Source of the DNA: a virus
Virus record (IMG/VR): IMGVR_UViG_3300034072_001301
Coordinates: 1-47,029 of that record
DNA: 47,029 nt
Reading direction: 5' to 3' (one strand)
A program made the position numbers and the translations under genes. The notes under the pieces were generated by a model. That model was not told the origin of the DNA and made no database searches. It saw only the letters and a program-made list of their open reading frames with translations. This document shows positions 15,459 to 26,231 of the stretch, in pieces (within the stretch, counting starts at the first letter, position 1; every line of letters starts with the position of its first letter).

Positions 15459-15704
15459 ATGGGTGATATAATCAAAAGTGTAGTCGAGATGATCGCCAAA
15501 GGAGATGGAGGAGCATTAACGGCTCTCCTTCTAGGAATCATTGGTGTCTTGGGCTGGTATTGCTTTCGTCTAACTAAGCAATTGGAAAAAAAGGACGAGA
15601 AGATTTACAAGATCATTGACGATTACTCAAAAAATAACATCACTATCACAGAAGCCATGAACGGCTTAAAACTGGTTCTGATTGAGATCAAGGCAAAGCT
15701 CTAA
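15459..15704 (+). CDS. Single-pass membrane peptide with cytoplasmic coiled coil
   Basis: The 81-residue protein has an amphipathic start (MGDIIKSVVEMIAKGD), one hydrophobic segment (GALTALLLGIIGVLGWYCF, residues about 18-36), then a charged coiled coil beginning RLTKQLEKKDEKIYK. The positive residues after the segment predict that the C-terminal coil is cytoplasmic. It overlaps the PAS-protein start by one base, so the two are translationally coupled. It could be a membrane anchor or partner for the PAS protein. A holin-like or lysis-control role is also possible, but there is no diagnostic motif. Confidence 0.7.
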   Translation: MGDIIKSVVEMIAKGDGGALTALLLGIIGVLGWYCFRLTKQLEKKDEKIYKIIDDYSKNNITITEAMNGLKLVLIEIKAKL

Positions 15705-17374
15705 TGATGAAATGGCTGTTTGAAAGCAAAGAAGCTGCTGCCAAACGCGCATCACGTGCGGAGACCTTGAAAGTAGCACTGGAGTCAAGTGAAGCTCTTG
15801 AAAAAGCAGCCAAAGGAACGTTGGATCTGGCTGCTGATGTTACTGAGACTCTTCAAGCCAAAATTGACGACTATACGACCCAGATCGACCAAACCGCCAG
15901 GCTATTGAATGATGCCTTGATGCTGGTGAGCCCTGAAGGTGAAATACAAAGCTATAACCCAGCCGCTGAATCCATGTTTGGATGGAAGAAAAGAGAAGTA
16001 GTTGGCAAAAAGATCAGTATCCTTTTTCAGTTTCCTGAGGACCCTGTAATTGATGTAGACTTCATGGAATCGTTGGTAACGCAGGTAAACACTAATGATG
16101 AGTTTACCAGCGTGAACTATGAAGATTTCAAAGGTATCAGAAAAGACGGAAGCGTTATCTATATAGACGTTTCAGCAAGCAAGGTAGTTCGCAGCGACAA
16201 GAAAATTTACTATATCATGTTGGTCAGAGATGTCACACATCAGGTCAACAATAGTATTATGATACGTGAACTGGCTGAGCACAATCAAGAACTTATAACA
16301 ACAATTGATGCGTCCAGCACTGGGTTCATGATCCTTAACCCAGATGGATCCGATTTCAATATCAGTTTTGTTAATGAAGGTTTCGCCAAACTGGTTGGGT
16401 TCAAGAGATCAGCTATCAAGAAAATGAATCTACGTGATTTGTTTGGAACAGACTCCACCTTTTGGACTATTCGTAGAACCCTCATGGAAGGTGTAGAAGG
16501 CAGACACGAAATCCAATTCGACATTGGAGTTAGTCAAACTGCCGTATTTGAGGTTCACCTGACACCTGTGAAAAAAGCTTCTAAGCCAGTTCAATGGATT
16601 TTGGTATTCTATGACACAACCGAATTGAAGAAGGCATACCAAGCTCTTGGAAAAAGCCAAGCAACGTTCAAGGCATTTAGCGATGCTAGTTCTGAAAGCT
16701 TGATAATTCATGATCACACTAGACTGATGGAATGGAATGATAGAGTTATTCTCCTAACAGGATACTCTGACTCAGAGCTAGAAACCATGAATCCTTCTGA
16801 TTTGCTTCATCCTCTTGAAAGAGAAAGGATGCTATTCAAGCAACATGATATAGAGGATTCATCTTATGAGACTCTATTCCTTACCAAGACCGGTGAGGTA
16901 AAGGATGTTGCCATCAATAGCAAACCAATTGAGTGGGATAACACCGACGCCAGAATAGCCATTGTTCGAGATGTCACAGCGTTCAAGGATGTGGAAACTC
17001 AGTTGAAGACCTCTCGTGAAAGATATAAAACCGTAGTAGACAATACCATTGATCTCATTGTTTGTTTCAACAAAGACTTTGAAATCACCTTTTCGAACCA
17101 AACGTTTCGAGACTATTTTGATGTAGAGGTAGAAGACATAAACGGTTTCAGTCTACTAGAAATCATCCCTGAATCTGATCATAACAAGTTCATCAAATAC
17201 ATGCTGGAAGTTCTTCCGGGCCAGGAAATTCGTCGCGGTGTTCATCGTGTCAAAAGGCATGATGAAATCAGGTGGCAGGATTGGATTGATCGAGGCATCT
17301 TCGATGAAGATGGTAATTTGATTGAAGTCCAAAGTGTTATACGAGATATCACTCATCTCATACCCAGTCAATAA
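15704..17374 (+). CDS. Four-PAS-domain sensory protein without an output domain
   Basis: The 556-residue protein has an N-terminal helical region (residues 10-60) and four tandem PAS/PAC units at about 60-180, 190-310, 316-430 and 436-553. Landmarks are NPAAESMFGW, RKDGSVIYIDV and LVRDVTHQ in the first; NEGFAKLVGF in the second; LTGYSDSEL and IVRDVTAF in the third; and NQTFRDYFDV and VIRDITH in the fourth. It ends right after the last PAC, with no histidine kinase, GGDEF, EAL or HTH domain. PAS units bind ligands, haem or flavin, or partner proteins. A role as a cytoplasmic sensor tethered by the coupled membrane peptide is inferred. Confidence 0.85.
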   Translation: MMKWLFESKEAAAKRASRAETLKVALESSEALEKAAKGTLDLAADVTETLQAKIDDYTTQIDQTARLLNDALMLVSPEGEIQSYNPAAESMFGWKKREVVGKKISILFQFPEDPVIDVDFMESLVTQVNTNDEFTSVNYEDFKGIRKDGSVIYIDVSASKVVRSDKKIYYIMLVRDVTHQVNNSIMIRELAEHNQELITTIDASSTGFMILNPDGSDFNISFVNEGFAKLVGFKRSAIKKMNLRDLFGTDSTFWTIRRTLMEGVEGRHEIQFDIGVSQTAVFEVHLTPVKKASKPVQWILVFYDTTELKKAYQALGKSQATFKAFSDASSESLIIHDHTRLMEWNDRVILLTGYSDSELETMNPSDLLHPLERERMLFKQHDIEDSSYETLFLTKTGEVKDVAINSKPIEWDNTDARIAIVRDVTAFKDVETQLKTSRERYKTVVDNTIDLIVCFNKDFEITFSNQTFRDYFDVEVEDINGFSLLEIIPESDHNKFIKYMLEVLPGQEIRRGVHRVKRHDEIRWQDWIDRGIFDEDGNLIEVQSVIRDITHLIPSQ

Positions 17375-17981: not shown

Positions 17982-18176
17982 TTAGCGGCGGATAACTGTA
18001 GGTTTGGATTTGCGACTTTTACGCTTCTTTTCAGCAGCATCATAAATCCCTTTGTGACCATTTGGATCAAAGCCAGCACCAATACCTCCTACGGAGGTAG
18101 CAACTGATCCTGCACCAGTGGCACCACTACTAGCTGTTTCCAGTATAGGTGTTCCTACAATTTCACTCCATCGCAT
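17982..18176 (-). CDS. Small late protein with candidate capsid-targeting N-terminus, 64 aa
   Basis: The protein begins MRWSEIVGTPILETASSG, sharing MRW(S/N)EIV with the protein at 9412-9777. ILE followed by Thr fits the (L/I)xE prohead protease pattern. After Gly/Ala/Ser-rich sequence it ends in a basic tail (KKRKSRKSKPTVIRR) that could bind packaged DNA. Its start overlaps the stop of the nucleotidyltransferase (TAATG). A DNA-binding internal head protein is a reasonable inference. Confidence 0.55.
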   Translation of the reverse strand: MRWSEIVGTPILETASSGATGAGSVATSVGGIGAGFDPNGHKGIYDAAEKKRKSRKSKPTVIRR

Positions 18177-19084
18177 TATATCACCTTTATTCCAAAACGT
18201 CTGAGTGCCTCTTTGGGAATTTCTACTTTCAAGCTATTTAAGCGCTCAACATAAATCTCGTAGATTTTCAAGCGGTCAGATATGGTATAGGTTGAGTTCA
18301 TAGCAATTGATATACCTTCAAAGGTATTCATATCATCAACCTTATAGTGATCGCCCAGAACCATTTCAACGATCTGTTTGGGATCTTTGATGATGTCAGC
18401 TCTGGCCGGAGTGGCACTTGGATAGATGGCCATGAACTCTTCTTTGGATACCTCTTTTAAGCTCTGAACTCTGCCTTTGCCGTCTTTTCTCATCGGCCTA
18501 TAGCGATATCTCCAAATACAGCCTTTGTCATGGAAGAACGTAGGACCAACCCTTGCTATCATCTCTCCATTCTCCTCAAGAACCCAATCACTATTGAAGG
18601 CCACTAGAGCTTTGATGAGCTCAGTTCGGTAAAGGCCTCTGAGAGAACTCAAATTTGGATTATGTTTCCAATAGTAAAACCCATCAAGAAAAGTCGGATC
18701 ATGACGAGTTGAAAAGTAGCTGAACTTTTGCCACTCATAATCACCAAACATGAAATCAACCTGCACGTATCCATTAGCAGGATCCCCACCAATGGGAACC
18801 GCCGTGAATATTTGGTTATTTCCCAGGCGAGGTCGAACGTTATCTGCCCCGAGAAGTTCAACCAGGTCTTTGGCAACCTTTTCCTGATCATATAGTTCAA
18901 TGCTACAGTTCAGATCAATATCACCACTGGTAAAACTTTTCCCAGCACTGCCTAACAGTCTATCACTCCAGTCATGATCTTGCAGATGGCCATCTTTCCA
19001 GTTGTCTAACAACCAGGTGATAGTAGGCTCTATCTCTTCTTTTTCAATTCTACGAGTTATGCCCCGAAACGCTTTACCGCCCAT
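18176..19084 (-). CDS. Polymerase-beta-fold nucleotidyltransferase
   Basis: The 302-residue protein starts MGGKAFRGITRRIEKEEIEP, with AGAGAA upstream and an 11-base overlap with the ligase-like gene. LLGSAGKSFTSGDIDLNCS near residues 44-62 is the nucleotidyltransferase helix-turn motif with GS and paired carboxylates DxD. YVQVDFMFGD near residues 105-114 gives the third carboxylate. The C-terminal half has a helical substrate domain. It probably adds a nucleotide to RNA, protein or small molecule. CCA-like end addition is an attractive guess given the ligase partner. Confidence 0.7.
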   Translation of the reverse strand: MGGKAFRGITRRIEKEEIEPTITWLLDNWKDGHLQDHDWSDRLLGSAGKSFTSGDIDLNCSIELYDQEKVAKDLVELLGADNVRPRLGNNQIFTAVPIGGDPANGYVQVDFMFGDYEWQKFSYFSTRHDPTFLDGFYYWKHNPNLSSLRGLYRTELIKALVAFNSDWVLEENGEMIARVGPTFFHDKGCIWRYRYRPMRKDGKGRVQSLKEVSKEEFMAIYPSATPARADIIKDPKQIVEMVLGDHYKVDDMNTFEGISIAMNSTYTISDRLKIYEIYVERLNSLKVEIPKEALRRFGIKVI

Positions 19085-20243
19085 CTTCAATTCTCTTTCT
19101 TGTGTCACTAAACAGATTCAATGTTCTCTGATGTAGCTGCCCTGCATACAAAATCAGTTCTTGCCTGGCACCTGATCTGATGATATGTTGAAGACCAAGT
19201 CTCTTGGACAGATAACGTCTTAGAAGTGTATCCAATCGTTCTAATCGTTTTTCTTTTGGCCAGTCCTTGGTTCTAGAAAGAAAGCTAGGGCGAGCAGGTC
19301 GTCTGCCCCCAACCAGCCAGTATTTTACAATATGGGTAAAGCGATTGGCTCGATGGAATTCTTCCCGATCAACTATTTTGAATTTGCCCTGATTGCTTTC
19401 AACAACCACACCTTCTTTGAAGGATCCAGCGCCTATTATACTCGGTTGCTCAAGGACCAATACTCTATAGACAATATCCTTGAATATGAGGACCATTGAC
19501 CTAAAAACTTCCTTGAGTTCATTACGCTCCGTAGCGAGATCCTTTTTTAGATCATTCCAGTTTCTATCACCACATTTATGATGTTTCCTTGATAGATTGA
19601 TATCTAGGACGTCAAAGACCGTGAAACCCGGTGTCTTACTTTCTTGTTGAAACCAATGATCCAATACGATTCTGAACTTCTTAGCGTGAGTCGATAGCCT
19701 GGCTTTTACCATTTCTTTGGAAATGTGTGGGTTGATAAACACCTGCCACTTTTGTTTTTCAGCTATGATTTCACTGCTAACACCATCAGAACTTTGACGA
19801 TAATTGACATCAATCATACATTCGAAAGAATCAAATAGGCGTATATGACTCTCTTCAAATGTAAAGCTAGAAGAGGTAATGATAAGGATACCGGGAACCT
19901 CTCTGGGGATCACGTATGGAATAGTATTTGGTGATGATCCCTGAATAATCTCCGCCTCTAGATATTGTTCAGGACTGATTAGTTTTTCCTTGAATAGAGC
20001 ATCAATTACAGTAGATGCTACCATATGGCCAATGCGATATGATGTTGCCCAACATTCATCAGACCAATCATCAACGCTATGGCAGGGATCGCCTCCCTTA
20101 CGCCTACTATAAAAGGACCCTGATTCATCCAACCCAAAGCGCAGGTGGCTACCGTCGAGTTTTTCACTCGGCCACCACATTAAGTCAAGGCTATCATATA
20201 TGGCCTTGGCACTCAAATCTTCATAATGGGGAATACTAACCAT
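19074..20243 (-). CDS. RNA/DNA-ligase-like nucleotidyltransferase
   Basis: The 389-residue protein has ligase motif I as SEKLDGSHLRF, with Lys28 as the candidate AMP acceptor, then a motif-Ia-like SRRKGG. Later it has KEGVVVESNQGKFKIVD (residues about 273-289), which holds motif IV (EGVVV) and motif V (KFKIV). This is the order expected for covalent nucleotidyltransferases that seal nucleic acid nicks. The C-terminal 90 residues are basic and helical. It is directly coupled to a polymerase-beta nucleotidyltransferase. RNA ligase is more likely than DNA ligase from the compact core, but this is not decided. Confidence 0.65.
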   Translation of the reverse strand: MVSIPHYEDLSAKAIYDSLDLMWWPSEKLDGSHLRFGLDESGSFYSRRKGGDPCHSVDDWSDECWATSYRIGHMVASTVIDALFKEKLISPEQYLEAEIIQGSSPNTIPYVIPREVPGILIITSSSFTFEESHIRLFDSFECMIDVNYRQSSDGVSSEIIAEKQKWQVFINPHISKEMVKARLSTHAKKFRIVLDHWFQQESKTPGFTVFDVLDINLSRKHHKCGDRNWNDLKKDLATERNELKEVFRSMVLIFKDIVYRVLVLEQPSIIGAGSFKEGVVVESNQGKFKIVDREEFHRANRFTHIVKYWLVGGRRPARPSFLSRTKDWPKEKRLERLDTLLRRYLSKRLGLQHIIRSGARQELILYAGQLHQRTLNLFSDTRKRIEDGR

Positions 20244-23484: not shown

Positions 23485-24510
23485 TTATCTCAGCCGTTGC
23501 CGTTGTACACCTATTGATAACCTATCTTTGGTTCTGGCGTCAATAATCGACCAGATCGTATATAGCTTACCATAAGCCTTTACGGCATCCGCCGCGTCCT
23601 TGATTCCTTCATCCCAACGAGGAAAGGACACATGCCAGCCTTGAGCTAAAGCAGTATCAACTAGTCGTCCTCCTTGGTTTGTGCGATCAGGCACAACGAT
23701 CTTGGTTTTGCCGGTTTGGTTTAACCACTGAATTTGTTCAGCAGTTACTTTATCACCTAGCATAGCAACACCATTGACCGCGATTCCGTCAAATGGTCCT
23801 TCATTTATGAATAGATATTCCCAATCCTCTTTGATGGCATCAGTATTGAAGATATAATGAGGTTGGACCTCACTGTAATAGCGGCGACTACTGGATCCGT
23901 TGACTATCCTGGCTGTCCAACCAACAATCTCATTTTCCCAATAGAATGGAATAATAACCCTCTGGTTCATTCCATCAGTGGTGTCTGGTGTCCAATAGTA
24001 GTCATATGACAGTAGGATATCCTCACCTCTATTGGCCACATAGTTGAGCACCTCCAGGAAGTGAGGATCCTCGCAATTCTCCTCAAGCCAAAAGGCTATA
24101 GGCTTAGCAGACTTTGGTAGGTTTCTGGATTCAAAAGTGATTGAAGCAGAAGCCTGCCGGGTAAAAGACTGCTCTATGCCACCCCCTTCAAGGAGAGTTT
24201 TGCGTAGAAGAGAAACATCAAAATCAAGACGTCTAATCTTCTCACTTGGCATACCTAGCCACTCAAAATACTTTCTCCACTTTGTAGAGAAACGAGCACC
24301 AGGAGACCAACCTGCTCGGAAACCACAGTTAAAGCAGGAAACCGAAGTCCGACCGTCAGAGTCAAACAAAATACCCGAACGTTTTTTGGTGTCTGCCCTC
24401 ATCTGTCCGTTATGAATACAGCATGGACCATTGAACGTAGTCCAACGGCTGGGGGTTTGTTTACCCCCAGGGATACAGCTCATTAGGGCACTATAGATGA
24501 GGGTAGACAT
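23485..24510 (-). CDS. 61: DNA primase, T4 gp61/DnaG type
   Basis: The 341-residue protein has an N-terminal zinc site (CC-IH near residues 30-33 and CFNCGF near 58-63) and a TOPRIM domain (YLFINEGPFDGIAVNG near 215-230, IVVPDRTN near 251-258). The start ATG overlaps the upstream stop (TGATG), so it is coupled to the TGT-like gene. It makes RNA primers at the fork with gp41. The length matches T4 gp61 (342 residues). Confidence 0.93.
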   Translation of the reverse strand: MSTLIYSALMSCIPGGKQTPSRWTTFNGPCCIHNGQMRADTKKRSGILFDSDGRTSVSCFNCGFRAGWSPGARFSTKWRKYFEWLGMPSEKIRRLDFDVSLLRKTLLEGGGIEQSFTRQASASITFESRNLPKSAKPIAFWLEENCEDPHFLEVLNYVANRGEDILLSYDYYWTPDTTDGMNQRVIIPFYWENEIVGWTARIVNGSSSRRYYSEVQPHYIFNTDAIKEDWEYLFINEGPFDGIAVNGVAMLGDKVTAEQIQWLNQTGKTKIVVPDRTNQGGRLVDTALAQGWHVSFPRWDEGIKDAADAVKAYGKLYTIWSIIDARTKDRLSIGVQRQRLR

Positions 24511-26183
24511 CAAGCAAATAGTCCGTTGTTGACAATTTGTAGCTTGGGCTTGTTCTCAGCCAGATGAGGGGCTTCTGCTTCCTTCTTGGCCTTGAGCGCG
24601 TTGACGTGATCCTTTTGATTGGCAACTTCAAACAATTGAAGATCCAAAACACCACGTTCCGCGTTGTCACTCGCTAGATAATTGAGAACCTTACGGTTTC
24701 TTTCAATTACTGACATTGGAGTTTCACTACTGAAAACTTCTTCGACAACCGACTTGATTTCAAGAAGTTGCTGAGGCACCGCAGAAGGATCGCCCTTGTC
24801 ATATAGGTCTTGGGATTCGTAAACACCCTCAAGATGAACCTGAACATTGTGATTCATCAACATCGCATAGGTAACAACGTCCCATGTTGAAGTAAACTTG
24901 GGATCAACGTTGACGCAAATGTCACCCATTTTCAACTGCTCGCCAATTTGGGTTCTGACAAAACGCGAACCCTCAACACCATCTAGACGTTCATGGAACA
25001 TCTCTTCCAAGACATCCAGGAATGGTCGGTCAGCGTCTTTGCCCTTGGGCGGTAGAGGAATCTTATTGCCGTTGTCATCAAGCAAATACTTGATGCGATC
25101 CTTGCCTGTTGAAATCATCTCATAACCAATCTGCTCAACACCCTCATCGTCTATATAGGTGTTGGTTGGGAGATAGTTTCGACCGTCAAGTTTTTCACCC
25201 TGAATACTCCAACTATCCTTATTCAGGTTATAACCCAAAAACACCTTACCATATGCCGCCAGAGTAAAGGGCGAACTCACATCATACGAAATAGTAAAGT
25301 TGGGATTGATCTGTTCACGAACCTGACGCTGGATCGTTGTATAGACGCAGCCGTGCTGGAACTTACCAACACCTAGGAAGTGCATCCAATCGCGGTCCTG
25401 TAGGACACCGTCATCGCGCATGTTGATGATGCGTCCCAGAGACATCTCAAAGTTTTCTTTGTGGTGCGAAGCTAGCGACCAACCTTCAAAGGGATAGTGC
25501 TTGACGTTTTCATACCAGATTTTGGATTCGCTTGCGTTACGACCCTGAACCACATTCAAGAACTTGGTGGCACCTGGAACTCGATTTTTTACAAAATAAT
25601 CATTGTTGATCAGCGTTTGAAGCATACACGCATAAAACAAGCGATCATTCTTGTTGTTGACGTTGCCGCCATTTTTGATGATCAAAGCATCTAGAGCTTC
25701 TTTGTTTCCTGAATCAACAATATTGGGATCCAACGGGCTCTCGAGTCGCGCGAGGTGCTGGTCGATGTTACCAATCTGGATGCCACCAGTTGGGAAGTCG
25801 AGAATCATCGACCAATCACAGTTAGCTTCCATCCAACGCATCATGCGTTCGCGAGTCTTGTCACCCTCAAACTTGATCGCACCGGTCTGGATCTGGAAAC
25901 CACCTGAGTCACCAAGAACGGTAGTTGAACCACGATCACGGCCAGTAACCATGTCTTTGCGTTCAGCAATACCGCTGCTCTTAGCTGCCTGGCCCGCTGA
26001 ATACAGCGCGCTAGGTAGATAAAAGAGACTACTATTGGGGTTGAAGAAGTTCAGTTCCTCGCGTGGAATAGGTGGCTCACGCTTGGGGTTTTCCGCATTT
26101 ACATAGCGGACATACATTTCTGAAATGGCAGGAGTGAATCGCGCATAGTCGCGATACCTCTTAGAATAATCAATTCCGGGCAT
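24510..26183 (-). CDS. tRNA-guanine-transglycosylase-like protein (DpdA-like)
   Basis: The 557-residue protein starts MPGIDYSKRYRDYARFTPAI with AGAGG upstream; an upstream in-frame GTG is disfavoured. VLGDSGGFQIQTG (residues about 88-100) is the TGT substrate-pocket motif with its catalytic Asp, ILDFPTG follows, FLGVGKFQHGC resembles the TGT glycine loop, and SYDVSSPF is the candidate nucleophile Asp motif. The C-terminal zinc site of tRNA-TGT is not visible. Phage DpdA proteins of this fold insert 7-deazaguanine bases into DNA. Coupling to the primase and helicase genes supports a DNA substrate; this is inference. Confidence 0.75.
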   Translation of the reverse strand: MPGIDYSKRYRDYARFTPAISEMYVRYVNAENPKREPPIPREELNFFNPNSSLFYLPSALYSAGQAAKSSGIAERKDMVTGRDRGSTTVLGDSGGFQIQTGAIKFEGDKTRERMMRWMEANCDWSMILDFPTGGIQIGNIDQHLARLESPLDPNIVDSGNKEALDALIIKNGGNVNNKNDRLFYACMLQTLINNDYFVKNRVPGATKFLNVVQGRNASESKIWYENVKHYPFEGWSLASHHKENFEMSLGRIINMRDDGVLQDRDWMHFLGVGKFQHGCVYTTIQRQVREQINPNFTISYDVSSPFTLAAYGKVFLGYNLNKDSWSIQGEKLDGRNYLPTNTYIDDEGVEQIGYEMISTGKDRIKYLLDDNGNKIPLPPKGKDADRPFLDVLEEMFHERLDGVEGSRFVRTQIGEQLKMGDICVNVDPKFTSTWDVVTYAMLMNHNVQVHLEGVYESQDLYDKGDPSAVPQQLLEIKSVVEEVFSSETPMSVIERNRKVLNYLASDNAERGVLDLQLFEVANQKDHVNALKAKKEAEAPHLAENKPKLQIVNNGLFA

Positions 26184-26203
26184 TGACGGCCTCTTGTTTT
26201 GTT

Positions 26204-26231
26204 CGTGTTTAACCACTTTAGGCTAAACACG
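26204..26231 (-). terminator. Hairpin upstream of the TGT-like gene
   Basis: An 8-bp stem CGTGTTTA/TAAACACG with a 12-base loop lies after the stop of the structural protein and in the leader of the next gene. There is no T-run on the minus-strand 3' side. Confidence 0.45.

Follow-up and report, generated by a model that had tools for sequence, protein, structure and literature searches.

A conserved phage gene pair encoding an RNA-ligase-type KxDG protein and a family-X-like nucleotidyltransferase, a candidate fill-and-seal unit

Two overlapping genes of a virus encode a ligase-like protein with a KxDG motif (ORF A) and a nucleotidyltransferase with a GS-x(n)-DxD motif (ORF B), and the question raised by this locus is what such a pair does for a phage. 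The window, namely, the whole stretch of 47,029 nucleotides analyzed here, is a 47-kb virus record and probably represents part of the genome of a large phage; a relative with 71% identity in its A protein is a 436-kb contig. The original prediction held that the pair adds nucleotides to a broken RNA end and then seals it, for instance to reverse host cleavage at the anticodon or the CCA end, by a route other than that of T4 Pnkp/Rnl1.

ORF A (19074..20243, minus strand, as are all features of the pair) encodes 389 amino acids. Its KxDG motif is K28-L-D-G, and K28 (20160..20162, in EKLDG), the motif I lysine, is the predicted adenylylation site. E98 (19950..19952, in EIIQG) is motif III-like, while E277 (19413..19415, in EGVVV) and K289 (19377..19379, in FKIVDR) are the motif IV glutamate and the motif V lysine, respectively. 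Among 25 ligase relatives with identities down to approximately 17%, H6, E27, K28, D30, G31, E277, G278, and K289 were invariant; E98 was invariant in 8 relatives and was found by eye in the clade with reversed gene order. This conservation, like that of the B residues given below, is well beyond chance. The original prediction had staked its ligase assignment on the motifs being alignable, and motifs I, IV, and V of A do align. As the motif I lysine, the motif IV Glu-Gly, and the motif V lysine by which the covalent nucleotidyltransferases are recognized occur in this order, A belongs to the KxDG nucleotidyltransferase superfamily. The Pfam RNA_ligase model (PF09414) matched A with an E-value of 0.0011 and 19.6 bits, which is sub-threshold against the 27-bit cut-off, and similarly weak matches were obtained for 14 of the 25 family members. 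Thus, A was not assigned to the Rnl2/Pfam RNA_ligase family proper, and the superfamily placement stands.

The AlphaFold2 model of A (pLDDT 94.0, pTM 0.88) was compared with known structures. By VIA-align, the Naegleria nick-sealing RNA ligase ranked first (Z 10.1 over 184 residues), followed by the editing ligase REL1, T4 Rnl1, Trl1, archaeal RNA ligases, and T4 Rnl2, with DNA ligases at Z 7.7 or less; the Foldseek E-values were modest (best, 5.6e-3). The structural comparison that the original prediction had proposed thus placed A with RNA ligases, including T4 Rnl1 and T4 Rnl2. A shares the nucleotidyltransferase fold and motifs I, IV, and V with T4 Rnl2, Naegleria NgrRnl, and the trypanosome editing ligase, but its part beyond motif V, consisting mostly of helices and one beta hairpin, differs from theirs, and HMMER searches of the A and B families against PDB sequences gave no meaningful match. 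The OB-fold domain expected after the nucleotidyltransferase domain of a DNA ligase is missing from the model of A. On the predicted structure, A is a protein of RNA-ligase-type fold, nearest to nick-sealing RNA ligases, with a predicted enzyme activity of that kind.

ORF B (18176..19084) could start at GTG 19108 (310 amino acids) or at ATG 19084 (302 amino acids). The latter was taken as the right start because MGGxAF is the conserved N-terminus. The metal-binding carboxylates D55-I-D57 (18914..18922) follow LGSAGK in the sequence SGDID, which reads SGDMD in Pol beta, and D110 (18755..18757, in VQVDFMF) is the third catalytic carboxylate. Among 37 nucleotidyltransferase relatives, G45, D55, D57, Q108, and D110 were invariant. 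With G45-S46, D55, D57, and D110 in place and the palm aligned as in family X, B belongs to the Pol-beta superfamily.

In the case of the fold of B, the AlphaFold2 model (pLDDT 92.8, pTM 0.90) showed a palm and thumb like those of family X DNA polymerases. The best 50 matches listed by Foldseek against the PDB were all Pol X (E 1.9e-4), and residues 7–259 of this predicted model aligned with the palm and thumb of Pol lambda (residues 380–577; Z 9.4, 180 residues). In BFVD, the first named matches after phage proteins were giant-virus DNA polymerases, some of them named family X. The 8-kDa lyase domain is missing, only approximately 40 residues preceding the GS motif, as is likewise the case in reduced viral Pol X. 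At the sequence level, neither Pfam nor PHROGs matched the window B, NCBIfam had no match for B, and a PF14792 search of the phages Phosso, Atu_ph07, and PA5oct found none; the palm (PF14792, E 0.0024) and thumb (PF14791, E 0.041) models each matched a single other B member. By hhalign, with the core letters of human Pol beta, lambda, and mu verified against the PDB, the window clade of B scored 21.6 against Pol X, not above the shuffled-control maximum of 22.9, and a subset drawn mainly from the clade with N-terminal leaders scored 26.2 against 17.5 for controls over 131 collinear columns. Since this sequence-level support is thin, B is termed family-X-like, on its modeled fold, rather than a Pol X.

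Other identities for B were also considered. RlaP was rejected, as none of the 37 members matched PF10127 at E 1, hhalign against two RlaPs stayed at the control level, and separate true RlaP genes occur in the same genomes as B in Atu_ph07 and Lak phages. Nothing marks B as a CCA enzyme, since there was no Pfam match to one and the listed fold matches were filled by Pol X, with no CCA enzyme among them; on this side, the proposed structural comparison did not support the original prediction. A scan of genome contigs found no relative of B, hence no cellular or prophage copy.

The stop of A and the start of B overlap by 11 nucleotides, ATGGGCGGTAA (19074..19084), which encode the end of A together with the MGG of B. 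The length is exactly 11 because the conserved ATG is taken as the start of B, and with this start the original prediction of Lys28 in KxDG and of an 11-base overlap with the GS-x(n)-DxD gene proved exact. The overlap recurs in at least 11 related loci, being found in L006–L011, L016, L019, L020, L021, L035, and Atu_ph07, with one or two bases differing in some.

Whether the two genes belong together was evaluated in relatives. By tblastn, A and B are adjacent in Sinorhizobium phage Phosso and Agrobacterium phage Atu_ph07 and near one another in Pseudomonas phage PA5oct, and B occurs without A in Prevotella Lak phages. In IMG/VR, 14 loci with A and 66 with B were recovered by profile scans, and linkage was surveyed by running both profiles over all ORFs of the IMG/VR and related loci. 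Five kinds of arrangement of a ligase-like gene and B were observed: A followed by B, mostly overlapping (the window, Atu_ph07, and many others); A, then B after a few genes (PA5oct, L023, L024, and L073); B followed by A, mostly with a 4-nt overlap (L077, L080, L083, L086, L089, and L091); a single 894-aa ORF in which A and B are fused (L067 and L068); and B fused to DUF6267 (most of L039–L066 and L074) or just upstream of it (L072, L082, and L070). In a B tree of 41 rows, the loci with A directly before B fall in one supported clade, and at least 10 changes are required to explain all arrangements. Co-location as a by-catch of one syntenic block was ruled out, since order, spacing, and fusion state vary while the linkage persists. 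Whole-record searches found A as a single copy in each giant genome that has it, beside or near B. B without a detected ligase was found in Lak phages, a Flavobacterium phage, and some contigs, and a second, stand-alone B lies far from the ligase in three giant genomes, namely, PV764938 (Phosso; 118239–119132) and the contigs G016 (155655–156479) and G017 (453159–453953). The co-occurrence in other phages that the original prediction had suggested checking was borne out by linkage or fusion in distant phages despite changes in order and spacing, and the view of A and B as a conserved functional pair is supported.

Some other genes were seen around B. A gene of approximately 230–260 amino acids, beginning with a leader-like sequence, is often found after B, including at loci that lack A, and is absent after the window B (L002:13995-14696, L003:10812-11600, L025:7119-7832, L034:6809-7513, L071:6687-7412, and L087:6740-7429). 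In Atu_ph07, a run of mostly similar-sized genes follows the pair (L003:11597-20345), the first two of which show, by eye, leader-like starts and an LYRG motif like that of ADP-ribosyltransferases, which T4 packages as Alt. Genes that by eye encode HAD-type phosphatases and HIGH-type nucleotidylyltransferases adjoin B or the ligase, or lie close by, in several phages (L057:5420-5989, L038:2615-3586, L094:8633-9232, L083:4525-5169, and L091:7645-8346).

DUF6267 (PF19782, PHROG 455), with which B is fused or adjacent in several phages, is unannotated in many cyanophages; examples are L095:4995-6188, L092:4938-5900, and L041:6700-7785. No paper naming this family was found in the literature searched. 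Compared with A by hhalign, DUF6267 gave 98% probability and an E-value of 2e-13, and the pattern H-x-E-D, KxDG, EGxV, K is common to both. By this homology and these shared invariant residues, DUF6267 is a KxDG ligase-like relative of A. A query containing DUF6267 and B matched 152 phage records, most of them cyanophages that matched its DUF6267 part. Unlike A, DUF6267 of T4-like cyanophages stands without B. Because B without a ligase and DUF6267 without B both occur, an A-type ligase and B may each be able to work alone.

To what extent the pair duplicates known repair enzymes was seen in the gene content of its relatives. Rnl1 was present in 6 of the 10 genomes tested, Rnl2-family ligases in 9, and an NAD+- or ATP-dependent DNA ligase elsewhere in the genome in 9; a separate test of nine phage records found true RlaP in Atu_ph07 and Lak-A2, away from B. 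As Rnl1, Rnl2, and a DNA ligase are encoded at other sites in most of these genomes, A would be an additional ligase with its own partner. The same coexistence argues against the pair as a substitute for T4 Pnkp/Rnl1, and the original prediction of an alternative to the T4 Rnl route did not hold. Its remark that no kinase-phosphatase adjoins the pair is uncontradicted for the genes searched, the window being a 47-kb fragment and the genomes of the relatives approximately 290–520 kb. The pair is thus probably an extra, dedicated fill-and-seal unit of predicted activity rather than a replacement for T4 tRNA repair.

The same evidence bears on tRNA repair in general, in which host anticodon nucleases or CCA-clipping enzymes would break tRNA, B would restore the lost nucleotide(s), and A would re-seal the molecule, as proposed for RlaP with RNA ligases. 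The RNA-ligase fold of A and its family's weak RNA_ligase matches agree with this reading. Moreover, a partnership of RlaP with Rnl-type ligases has been predicted for jumbo phages in the literature (PMC7824862), and it shares with the pair a Pol-beta nucleotidyltransferase, a KxDG ligase, and the logic of adding and then sealing. However, B is not recognized as RlaP and even coexists with it, A stands apart from Rnl1 and Rnl2 as a divergent ligase of its own, and in fold B comes nearest to polymerases that fill gaps. In addition, the role looks filled by Rnl1 and Rnl2 in most relatives and by real RlaP in two, and the 47-kb window contains no tRNA genes. A tRNA substrate therefore appears rather unlikely. 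The add-then-seal unit of the original prediction is partly supported, by the conserved pairing, the two intact active sites, and the RNA-ligase-type fold of A, and is weakened by B, which is not recognized either as an RlaP or as a CCA enzyme and whose nearest folds are gap-filling family X polymerases.

We consider it reasonably likely that A and B form one dedicated fill-and-seal unit acting on nucleic acid, for which we infer the catalysis, the order of steps, the cooperation, and the substrate. Neither family has a known enzymatic activity. What the analysis establishes is the presence of both genes, the integrity of their active-site residues, the folds predicted for the two proteins, their linkage or fusion across relatives, and the coexistence with other ligases. 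B, as a palm and thumb without the 8-kDa lyase domain, would bind metal-NTP through D55, D57, and D110 and extend a 3'-OH by one nucleotide or a few, probably where a duplex or hairpin has a short gap. A would adenylylate itself on K28, pass the AMP to a 5'-phosphate, and join this phosphate to the 3'-OH newly made by B. Translational coupling through the 11-nt overlap, or fusion, would keep the two proteins equimolar and close. The trypanosome editing TUTase-ligase pair works in a comparable way.

In the window, a primase gene (24513-23485, minus strand) lies upstream of the pair, followed by a DnaB helicase gene (23465-21963, minus strand), three more genes, and ORF A, and the pair is also downstream of primase and DnaB helicase in Phosso, Atu_ph07, and PA5oct. 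These neighbors and the polymerase fold of B favor DNA, and in particular a gapped duplex, as the substrate, while the modeled RNA-ligase-type fold of A without an OB domain slightly favors a 3'-ribonucleotide end, either in RNA or in DNA with a ribonucleotide patch. Accordingly, we weighed whether the pair might serve the phage genome as a minimal system for base excision or short-gap repair, in which Pol X fills and the ligase seals, possibly in the virion, as with the Pol X and ligase of large eukaryotic DNA viruses. African swine fever virus pairs its Pol X with a DNA ligase to fill and seal gaps. PgVPolX of Phaeocystis globosa virus, a fusion of Pol X, lyase, and DNA ligase for base excision repair (PMC5537341), offers a precedent that resembles the pair in joining a viral family-X core to a gap-sealing ligase. 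However, the partners in both viruses are DNA ligases, whereas A lacks the OB domain and is more like RNA than DNA ligases; B, unlike PgVPolX, has no lyase domain, and a standard DNA ligase is already encoded by most of the genomes. Dedicated DNA repair is on balance improbable as the specific role.

KxDG and Pol-beta folds are widely used in other chemistry. A role in transferring nucleotides to proteins or small molecules, jointly with the HIGH-type nucleotidylyltransferase that adjoins the pair in some phages, was also weighed: in L083 and L091, a gene of this type is seen by eye after the ligase, and in Syn9, S-WAM1, and the Flavobacterium phage, annotated cytidyltransferase/NMNAT genes adjoin DUF6267 or B. 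However, B has the Pol X thumb besides the palm, polynucleotide ligases are the best matches of A, and the A-B fusion suggests sequential action on one substrate, which makes this reading very unlikely and leaves a fill-and-seal unit on nucleic acid as the preferred one.

The N-termini of B point to a further property of part of the family. Among 29 distinct N-termini, M directly precedes GG in 12 and a leader precedes it in 17, and each of the 17 closes with [L/I]xE immediately ahead of GG, against a background of 2.2% per position, where the N-termini are those called by ORF start and the relatives are not independent. Chance was ruled out by this difference. L/I-X-E is the cleavage motif of the T4 prohead protease gp21 (PMC9026906), and N-terminal capsid-targeting leaders are removed at such a site (PMC9026906, PMC3012670). 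Several B leaders, such as MLTFKEYFLRE and MITFKQFITEA, have by eye a T4-like capsid-targeting look. The B homologue of PA5oct is annotated as "structural protein, ESI-MS/MS", and its A homologue has no such note. The [L/I]xE|GG leaders, as sequence patterns, hint at capsid delivery in one branch of B. The window B begins at MGG and is leaderless, and nothing indicates packaging by the window phage. In cyanophages such as Syn9 and S-WAM1, a cytidylyltransferase gene adjoins DUF6267, and the cytidylyltransferase has been detected in virions of cyanophages (PMC3037559, PMC10665884). It is conceivable, though we hold it only tentatively, that part of the family, cyanophage DUF6267 included, forms a virion-delivered repair kit: a family-X-like polymerase and its ligase-like partner, both with capsid-targeting leaders, would be trimmed by the prohead protease, coinjected with the genome, and used, before any phage gene expression, to repair gapped phage DNA or damaged host RNA by filling and sealing.

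These results give a probable function to two unannotated families, including DUF6267, that range from soil jumbo phages and Lak phages to marine cyanophages, and indicate that the pairing of ligase and polymerase in phages is not confined to RlaP but extends to another nucleotidyltransferase family. With the processing-site pattern, it can be tested directly whether repair enzymes are carried in the capsid into the cell, and a fused or coupled pair for gap filling and RNA-ligase-type sealing could serve as a reagent.

Two other observations concern the surroundings of the pair. Adjoining the primase gene, window 24510-26216 (minus strand) encodes a 568-aa protein without a meaningful HMM match, in which GDSGGFQI resembles, by eye, tRNA-guanine transglycosylase/DpdA-like enzymes; in Phosso, too, the primase is preceded by a gene of comparable length. 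On the strand opposite to the pair, a PAS-repeat protein (window 15459-17374, plus strand) is encoded together with a small upstream gene, and the same is observed in Phosso.
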